In this document: piece by piece, positions 1,971 through 57,066 of the stretch
Numbering within the stretch: position 1 is the first letter of the stretch
How the letters are laid out: each line of letters begins with the position of its first letter
NCBI RefSeq assembly: GCF_003386535.1
Contig: NZ_QTTN01000001.1
Coordinates: 225,979-289,978, forward strand
Direction of reading: 5' to 3'
From: Paenibacillus taihuensis
Lineage (GTDB): Bacteria > Bacillota > Bacilli > Paenibacillales > Paenibacillaceae
Length of the DNA stretch: 64,000 nt
Notes under the pieces: generated by a model
What the model was told of the DNA's origin: nothing
The model's input: only the letters and a program-made list of their open reading frames with translations
Databases searched by the model: none
Made by a program: the position numbers and the translations under genes

Positions 1971-2098
1971 GGGCAGCCGGAGAGTTTACGTGCCGCCATT
2001 GAACTTGGAATGCTACCGCGGACAGCGGTTCCAATCGAAGCATTCCAAGTTCAACAGCGGCCGCAGGCGCATCCCCGAACGGAGCGGCAGCCATGCCC
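1971..2098. repeat. Structured intergenic element, copy A
   Basis: A perfect 15-bp inverted repeat, TTGAACTTGGAATGC (1999-2013) with its complement (2040-2054), encloses a small CCGC/GCGG hairpin. Outside it, beyond a CA/CA 2x2 internal loop, GCCGC (1992-1996) pairs with GCGGC (2057-2061). Further out GGGCA (1971-1975) can pair with TGCCC (2094-2098). The 3' flank CAACAGCGGCCGCAGG resembles CAACAGCGACCGAAAG of the element at 16764-16917, and the 5' flank and stem share CGCC.TTG.ACTTGGA. Orientation and function are unknown; a structured RNA, a REP-like palindrome or a non-autonomous mobile element are all possible. Confidence 0.6.
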
Positions 2099-16763: not shown

Positions 16764-16917
16764 CGTTAAACCAGAGGCGGAGCAGGTTGAATGAATCTGG
16801 AGGAGCGAAAGCGTTCGCCTTTGTACTTGGATTCCCACCTTGGTGGATTGTTCATGGAATCCAAGTACAACAGCGACCGAAAGATCATTCAACATGCGCA
16901 GCGATCACGGTTTAACG
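16764..16917. repeat. Structured intergenic element, copy B
   Basis: Nested inverted repeats form a long rod: CGTTAAACC (16764-16772) with GGTTTAACG (16909-16917); GTTGAATGA (16786-16794) with TCATTCAAC (16885-16893); TCGC (16815-16818) with GCGA (16873-16876) across a CT/CA internal loop; and a perfect 15-bp stem TTGTACTTGGATTCC (16821-16835) with 16856-16870. A GCGAA/TTCGC hairpin lies in the 5' side (16805-16818). Shares layout and flanks with 1971-2098 while the helix sequences differ. Between dut and dpaA (16678-17090) I see no convincing gene; a 69-codon frame at 16706-16915 is spurious because it runs through terminator and repeat. Confidence 0.65.
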
Positions 16918-56789: not shown

Positions 56790-56834
56790 CCCAAGTGGTA
56801 TATTTACACAAGCACAATTGCATAGAACACGTAA

Positions 56835-57038
56835 AACAGGTGCTTTGAGATAGAGCCTAAGCTCGATATCTCTTAGCTTAATAGGGAAGTCCGGTGAAAG
56901 ACCGGCACGGACCCGCCACTGTAAGGAGCGCCAATTGCTTAGGCAATCGGCACTGGATCCATAGATGTCACTGAGCGGCCAATCGCCGCACGGGAAGACG
57001 TGGATGACAGATGCTCCAAGTCAGGAGACCTGCCTGTT
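56835..57038 (+). ncRNA. Cobalamin (B12) riboswitch
   Basis: Contains the conserved core GGGAAG.CCGGTGAAAG.CCGG.ACGG.CCCGCCACTGTAA (from about 56882) and the B12 box AGTCAGGAGACCTGCC (about 57019-57034). P1 is AACAGG (56835-56840) with CCTGTT (57033-57038). The known ligand is adenosyl- or other cobalamin. It precedes btuFCD-cobTUS. No gene is seen in 56790-57268. Confidence 0.95.
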
Positions 57039-57066
57039 TCGTAAACCATGCTGCCTACGAGGATTT

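Follow-up and report, generated by a model that had tools for sequence, protein, structure and literature searches.

What are the two similar folded stretches of DNA that lie downstream of polC and of dut in Paenibacillus taihuensis: a structured non-coding RNA, copies of a palindromic repeat, or both? They lie in the window (the whole stretch of 64,000 nucleotides that was analysed), and its initial annotation proposed that changed bases with kept pairing between the two elements point to selection for structure, as in a non-coding RNA or a palindromic repeat family. We found that this proposal is supported, with further copies in related genomes and covariation among the copies both present, and that its two alternatives hold together.

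Two folded elements in the window

The 15-bp apical stem (P4), the 2x2 loop beneath it and the next helix, GCCGC/GCGGC (P3), which had been described for the polC element with counterparts in the dut element, are all present in both. The outer pairing GGGCA/TGCCC that had been proposed with them is not a pairing of the family: TGCCC (2094–2098) belongs to a further outer helix with 1948–1954, so element 1 reaches from about 1948 to 2101. Three further features emerged, namely a three-way junction, a mini-hairpin (P2) and an internal loop in which C-GNA-G faces C-GNA-G. The features, with the basis of each in brackets, are:

about 1948–2101, +, element 1, B type, whole folded unit (sequence; match to covariance model R1, E = 2.6e-11)
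1948–1954, +, element 1, P0 5' arm GCTGGCA, pairing with 2094–2101, TGCCCAGC, with one bulge (sequence; outer-arm pairing is a property of the family)
1963–1965, +, element 1, GNA loop, 5' side, C-GTA-G (sequence and family consensus)
1966–1978, +, element 1, P1 5' strand, GTTC, GGG and GCC with bulges (sequence; covaries among genomes at polC–rimP)
1979–1991, +, element 1, junction GGAGA and region of mini-hairpin P2, GTTTAC (sequence; placed by analogy with A-type copies)
1992–1996, +, element 1, P3 5' strand GCCGC, pairing with 2057–2061 (sequence; polC–rimP comparison)
1997–1998/2055–2056, +, element 1, 2x2 loop CA/CA (sequence)
1999–2013, +, element 1, P4 5' strand, pairing with 2040–2054 (sequence, folding, polC–rimP comparison)
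2040–2054, +, element 1, P4 3' strand (sequence, folding, polC–rimP comparison)
2057–2061, +, element 1, P3 3' strand GCGGC (sequence; polC–rimP comparison)
2066–2080, +, element 1, P1 3' strand (sequence; polC–rimP comparison)
2081–2083, +, element 1, GNA loop, 3' side, C-GGA-G (sequence and family consensus)
2094–2101, +, element 1, P0 3' arm (sequence)
16765–16916, +, element 2, A type, whole folded unit (sequence; R1 match G000:C1:242752-242884, E = 7.5e-33)
16765–16772, +, element 2, P0 5' arm GTTAAACC, pairing with 16909–16916, GGTTTAAC (sequence)
16786–16798, +, element 2, P1 5' strand, GTTGAATG, an A bulge and ATCT, pairing with 16882–16893 (sequence)
16805–16812, +, element 2, P2 mini-hairpin GC-GAAA-GC (sequence; outer pair in the family GC in 92 copies, AU in 15)
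16813–16818, +, element 2, P3 5' strand GTTCGC, pairing with 16873–16878 (sequence)
16819–16820/16871–16872, +, element 2, 2x2 loop (sequence)
16821–16835, +, element 2, P4 5' strand TTGTACTTGGATTCC, pairing with 16856–16870 (sequence, folding)
16856–16878, +, element 2, P4 3' strand, CA of the 2x2 loop and P3 3' strand, with the core ACAACAGCGACC (sequence and consensus)
16882–16893, +, element 2, P1 3' strand (sequence)
16909–16916, +, element 2, P0 3' arm (sequence)

Element 1 lies between polC and the promoter of the rimP-nusA genes, upstream of a promoter-like TTGTCA/TATAAT, and element 2 lies past the dut terminator and ahead of dpaA, with same-site counterparts in two relatives, G005 and G008 (gene names are those of NCBIfam). 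In P1 of element 1, GTTC (1966–1969) pairs with GAAC (2077–2080), GGG (1971–1973) with CCC near 2073–2076, and GCC (1976–1978) with GGC (2066–2068). Both folds are more stable than expected: compared to 200 dinucleotide shuffles the z-scores are −5.4 for element 1 and −6.1 for element 2, no shuffle (0 of 200) was equally good in either case, and the 150-nt windows of both elements beat every one of the 200 shuffles, whichever strand is folded. Element 1 folds better on its reverse strand (−75.4 kcal/mol, against −67.8 on the + strand), an exception to the trend in the family, and the two strands of element 2 are tied; we counted both results against the reading that we favour below.

That no known Rfam family accounts for the elements, as had been noted, was borne out. 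Among 4227 Rfam models the only match in the window to reach its gathering threshold is a Cobalamin riboswitch (56821–57051, + strand, 90.2 bits), and 18 other copy-bearing loci gave no matches. We rejected the matches seen at E-values up to 10, which score far below the thresholds of their families. Beside element 1, the interval 2154–2265 (112 nt, upstream of rimP) contains TTGTCA (2157–2162) and TATAAT (2180–2185) followed by AGAGTGGGGAAACCCACTCT, and it has a separate match, at 92–96% identity, in G007, G010, G011 and G013. This interval, a conserved rimP-nusA leader, has no Rfam match at the gathering threshold.

A large family of intergenic repeats

To find further copies in the P. taihuensis genome we used the motif CAACAGCGRYCG, and curated 19 of them. 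Covariance model R1 was built from the 10 A-type copies without long insertions, leaving out L053, the two of B type and six in which the hairpin is longer. We discarded five pattern hits (L008, L049, L050, L051 and L052) as chance matches that seem to fall within coding sequence, and excluded L025 as a half copy. A search of the whole genome with R1 found at least 23 copies with E-values of 2.6e-11 or better, including both elements of the window; this number is a lower bound, from the best 150 of 2622 candidates. The other 13 matches (E up to 10) comprise 12 weak ones on the opposite strand of the same copies and one at E = 4.9. The B-type copies in this genome are element 1 and C28:57461, neither of which was used in R1. 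Because R1 contains the dut copy but no B-type copy, its match to the polC element (E = 2.6e-11) confirms that the two are related.

The family is abundant in related genomes. R1 matches were found at E-values up to 0.01 in at least 37 of 59 genomes including P. taihuensis itself (36 of the 58 relatives), with at least 55 matches in the relative that has the most. In a sample of the class there were matches at E-values up to 1e-6 in 27 of 299 genomes, again including its own, and all 27 belong to the family of the window's species; in the 59-genome set, seven genomes from other families of the same order also have matches. The numbers per genome are lower bounds, with up to 55 places scored in each genome of the smaller set and up to 10 in the larger. 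A pattern scan of named genomes found at least 119 stretches (L153–L271), and among the matches listed all are from Paenibacillus except those in Gorillibacterium timonense, in one Paenibacillaceae metagenome-assembled genome and in 'Bacillus sp. FJAT-27264'. Tandem arrays of two to four copies are present. One set of elements came from the best-scoring places listed, not from a random sample, and one analysis step took in 100 of the 296 loci collected. Both elements of the window belong to one large intergenic repeat family of Paenibacillaceae.

From 5' to 3', the consensus consists of P0, the GNA/GNA loop, P1, the junction, P2, P3, the 2x2 loop, P4 and a variable apical loop. P0 is an outer helix whose sequence is specific to the locus, and the internal loop with the two C-GNA-G strands lies between it and P1. 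The strand of the three-way junction is GGAGAA, P2 is a mini-hairpin of two pairs, GC(GNNA)GC, with A-U in the outer position in 15 of 108 copies, P3 is G(U/G)UCGC/GCGAUC, the 2x2 loop is CU/CA, and P4 begins UUGU and ends ACAA. Conservation is highest in P3, in the loop motifs and at the base of P4: between pairs of copies, over all copies, the difference is 10% in P3 and 12% in 13 motif columns (chosen after the consensus had been seen), compared to 35% in P4 and 50% in P1. Beyond the core, the flanks pair better within a copy than between copies, and 52 of 112 pass a 5% threshold set with swapped pairs.

Compensatory change at fixed sites

Covariation among copies, on which the proposal of selection for structure had leaned, is extensive. 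In an alignment of 113 copies, 92.9% of the cells in paired columns do pair, and 864 cells are changed on both sides, compared to 211.6 after shuffling and at most 171 in slid controls. When pairs instead of cells are counted, the excess becomes small (31 of 39, against 28.4; 17 of 500 shuffles reach 31), and because the alignment was fitted to the model it leans towards the model's pairing.

Single orthologous sites gave the same picture. The spacer between argJ and argB contains an element at one orthologous site in 12 of 12 genomes of the P. pabuli/xylanexedens group; 15 of its 39 pairs are changed on both sides, and 442 cells pair, against a mean of 413 and a maximum of 421 in shuffles. 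In four of these 12 genomes the sequences cease to align within the spacer on the argJ side, and the alignment picks up again close to the element. P. pabuli has further copies between argB and argD and between argF and argG (argB, argD and argG are NCBIfam names). At argB–argD covariation is weak, with 6 of 39 pairs changed on both sides in 11 rows; 377 cells pair, where the highest shuffle has 373.

At polC–rimP, 16 of 37 pairs are changed on both sides, compared to 7.4 in shuffles, and none of 500 shuffles was as high; this alignment consists of eight B-type copies from seven genomes plus L003, a P. taihuensis copy from another site. Sequence resembling element 1 is present at this site in 9 of 18 genomes of the genus including its own (8 of the 17 others; one of these, G003, has a partial match only) and is lacking in nine. 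Eight occupied genomes were fetched (G017, although counted, is not among them), and R1 confirms eight copies in seven of them, missing G003. In G002, where the site is empty, the distance from polC to the promoter is 141 bp, compared to 396 bp in the window.

Over 23 comparisons of orthologous copies, from sets chosen among the matches listed, 163 pairs are changed: in 96 a double change keeps the pairing, 18 are a step through G.U, and 46 are broken. The outer arms, too, show covariation among the orthologous dut copies. The helices therefore change by compensation, within single orthologous sites as well as between copies, and covariation above controls, the mark of a structured RNA under selection, is found in the family as a whole, at argJ–argB and at polC–rimP. 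Because many paired letters changed together and the shape was kept, such copies are each likely to serve as an RNA signal within the surrounding messages.

The unpaired motifs are also retained. Between orthologous copies (with the inverted copy L092, described below, left out), the 13 motif columns differ in 16 of 260 cases (6.2%), against 117 of 661 (17.7%) for the columns of P1 and 104 of 638 (16.3%) for those of P4. All unpaired columns taken together differ in 150 of 768 cases (19.5%) and so are not especially conserved, which we counted against our reading; conservation of unpaired positions rests on the motif columns.

Strand, mobility and the proposed role of the fold

In paired columns G.T combinations outnumber A.C combinations by 158 to 47 over all copies, or by 132 to 47 without a P3 pair that is U.U or G.U, which indicates that one strand is favoured over the family. 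By group, the ratios are 70:23, 22:6 and 21:6 in the other groups, and 19:12 in P. taihuensis, the last counted against the favoured reading; at argJ–argB the ratio is 35 to 0. Whether RNA or DNA folding parameters are used, 90 of 113 copies fold better on the + strand. A favoured strand does not by itself separate RNA from single-stranded DNA.

The orientation of the elements relative to neighboring genes differs among clades. We counted it with a simple ORF picker whose results are approximate (for example, it gave the dut copy a minus-strand left neighbor, whereas dut itself is a plus-strand gene). For elements taken from the best-scoring places listed, same-sense and antisense placements number 16 and 1 of 20 elements in clade g6, where many copies are about 40–80 nt ahead of a start codon, 9 and 4 of 17 in clade g13, 2 and 1 in clade g32, 1 and 1 in G001, and 3 and 9 of 17 in G010, which belongs to the genus of the window's species. 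P. taihuensis itself has 4 and 5 of 23, with 11 elements between convergent genes, and in 11 of its 15 cases with a same-strand upstream gene a terminator-like site separates that gene from the element. These results, the counts of G010 and the modest excess in clade g13 speak against our reading. Named loci of the xylanexedens group, among the matches listed, have 12 and 0 of 15. All named loci except those of P. baekrokdamisoli have 57 and 18 in tandem settings among 107 (P = 7e-6, among the matches listed, with arrays and orthologous loci included unthinned), and P. baekrokdamisoli has 1 and 4 of 9. We counted the clade g6 result and the same-sense excess in the 107 named loci in favour of our reading. 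This conflict between clades is the main weakness of a simple mRNA model. Orientation relative to the replication strand, considered as a cause, was set aside, being mixed between clades (by eye, among the places listed, and with the origin assumed to be at base 1). At one orthologous site, the element L092 of G018 is inverted relative to L046, L095 and L106, which we also counted against our reading.

Mobility is clearest in P. baekrokdamisoli (G012), in which the copies sit between inverted repeats GGCTC...GAGCC. Of 19 units bounded by these terminal inverted repeats (TIRs), 10 have 8-bp target repeats with at most one mismatch, six of them exact, compared to 1 of 342 in a swapped control. 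Fifteen of the 19 contain the core, among them seven of the 10 and three of the six. These core-bearing units are short (212–226 bp), non-coding and bounded by TIRs, as in a miniature inverted-repeat transposable element (MITE), a combination found in this species only. Carried in a MITE with 8-bp target duplications, the element is mobile in P. baekrokdamisoli. GGCTC ends and 8-bp target repeats are hallmarks of the ISL3 family. We searched G012 for an ISL3 transposase and found one locus. It is interrupted by a stop, and the stretch fetched around it shows no GGCTCTAAACC-type end, which speaks against a resident ISL3 element as the mover. Different ends, resembling TATATAAGTTGAAC, are found instead in P. 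brevis, P. antibioticophila, P. roseus, P. tuaregi, P. oralis and G007, and one P. brevis unit with such ends is missing the core. Insertion of the core into pre-existing palindromes is not needed to explain the locus-specific outer helices, since the outer arms covary between orthologous dut copies. Nor, in the loci examined, did we find a gene carried inside a copy: the one right-half copy of P. taihuensis, L025, lacks a left counterpart within the 1.5 kb fetched upstream. The other four of the 19 G012 units (L278, L279, L280 and L283, 309–417 bp) form a MITE whose GGCTC ends are related to those of the core-bearing MITE, with exact 8-bp duplications in three of the four and an unrelated, strongly folding interior.

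The reading that we favour, and to which we give an even chance, is that one strand folds better into the conserved structure, that the family has moved as a MITE in at least one species, and that it is likely retained for what its transcript does as an RNA element next to genes. A structured RNA would thus have been spread by transposition and retained at some sites through selection. Its fold would work as RNA; in operons such as arg, where the element is on the sense strand between cistrons, it would form part of the message. The conserved loops GGAGAA, GNA/GNA, CU/CA and GGAA may bind a putative factor or nuclease, which would then set the processing or stability of the flanking segments. 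Its likely role lies between genes, in processing, in stability or in protein binding. Rather doubtful, in our view, is a bolder version in which the family is a new branched RNA module, possibly catalytic or a dedicated protein's docking site, that travels on unrelated miniature transposons throughout Paenibacillales and was repeatedly domesticated as a portable intercistronic control, including in three spacers of one arginine operon.

If the element were instead a selfish MITE, its fold would serve only its own movement, for example through a transposase that recognises folded DNA, and old copies would be neutral. The target duplications and TIRs of P. baekrokdamisoli, the second type of TIR in other species, the patchy presence, the tandem arrays and the clade-dependent orientation all agree with this, and a mobile palindromic element does explain the copies, the arrays and the presence or absence at particular sites. 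It does not explain that copies at fixed sites, namely argJ–argB (12 of 12 genomes) and polC–rimP, have retained both their pairing and their loop motifs: in neutral copies the motifs would be expected to decay no more slowly than other bases, yet between orthologous copies the rate of change in the motif columns is about a third of that in the helix columns, and we consider a purely selfish element unlikely. A fold that acts as single-stranded DNA or as a cruciform, such as a hairpin recognised by a protein in replication or recombination, would suit the placement outside the sense strand in the window's genus and the stability of the + strand with DNA parameters; P2 (GC-GNA/GNNA-GC) and the C-GNA-G/C-GNA-G loop also resemble motifs that we take to be stable in DNA. 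The excess of G.T over A.C at argJ–argB, however, fits wobble pairing in RNA better, and the orientation in clade g6 operons is almost uniformly sense, so that we find a DNA role quite improbable.

Compensatory changes could also arise by mutation, if hairpin-templated repair copied changes from arm to arm without selection. The arms are long and palindromic, pairing of the outer arms is specific to each locus (52 of 112 pass the swapped-pair threshold), as repair would give, and unpaired columns overall differ as often as helices between orthologous copies. Repair would not protect the loops, yet their motif columns, although chosen afterwards, differ far less than P1 and P4 do, both between orthologous copies (6.2% against 16–18%) and over all copies (12% against 35–50%). 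Symmetric repair does not predict an excess of G.T over A.C either, and this origin seems very unlikely. We give hardly any credence to an intrinsic terminator, or to a riboswitch or attenuator that would act as a gene-specific leader. The position of many clade g6 copies shortly before a start codon would suit a leader, but the 17 flanking downstream genes listed appear diverse by eye, no Rfam riboswitch matches at the elements, and at polC–rimP the element is upstream of the promoter-like sequence. The hairpin and T-run of an intrinsic terminator are rarely seen: in cases with a same-strand upstream gene, our simple scan found a terminator-like site past the element in only 1 of 15 in P. taihuensis and, among the matches listed, 6 of 75 in the named genomes.

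Dispersed palindromic repeats have, to our knowledge, mostly been regarded as mobile DNA in decay. In this family a single core retains both its pairing and its loop motifs at fixed sites across many genomes. The family also provides ready-made controls, in the same site with and without an element (polC–rimP) and in two or three copies within one arg operon, so the question whether dispersed repeats become working RNA parts is directly testable in soil bacteria.

We did not find this repeat described in the literature searched, which consisted of titles and the starts of abstracts, with most subscription papers outside it. Among the closest in kind are bcr1–bcr18, intergenic repeats of another Bacillota group, Bacillus cereus and its relatives; according to the portion of the source available, bcr1–bcr3 are MITE-like, about half of the copies are transcribed in UTRs, between cistrons or alone, and bcr10 and bcr18 have conserved secondary structure (PMC3446304). 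Judged by that partial description, the present family differs from them in having one structured core in different TIR frames in different species, with compensatory change at fixed sites. Similarly close are Correia/NEMIS, ERIC, BOX and other structured MITEs, which the accessible text portrays as small and mobile with transcripts that fold, and for which it reports RNase III cleavage or effects on transcripts (PMC10969869). Whereas that text describes a stable stem-loop, the core described here is branched, with conserved unpaired motifs that are kept while the TIRs differ. REP elements (of the REP/RAYT systems) are likewise extragenic palindromes with many copies, but in the source as available they are 20–40 bp long and end in GTAG (PMC3733652), whereas ours are about 150 nt long with several loops, and their consensus lacks a GTAG end. 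In P. baekrokdamisoli the family resembles ISL3-family MITEs in its GGCTC ends and 8-bp target repeats, and differs from them in that the stretch fetched around the one resident ISL3 transposase locus has no GGCTCTAAACC-type end, and in having other TIRs in other species.

Several copies are interrupted by, or lie beside, other palindromes. Five in P. taihuensis, L006, L007, L009, L021 and L039 (−), have a hairpin of about 50 nt, TAGGCGAAATGATTTGCGT...ACGCTAAATCATTTGCGCC, inserted in the 2x2 loop. A second palindromic repeat, AAAGCTTTCTG.AAGAAAGCTGCTTCGGAAGCATA and its variants, is nested in both orientations at the position of P2 or of the 2x2 loop in L154, L166, L187, L189, L192, L206, L208, L217, L229, L176 and L307, and related CTTCGGAAGCATACGCT repeats adjoin an array in G010. 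One copy in G012 (L277:3728-3798) is without the P3/P4 hairpin and keeps P1 and the outer arms.
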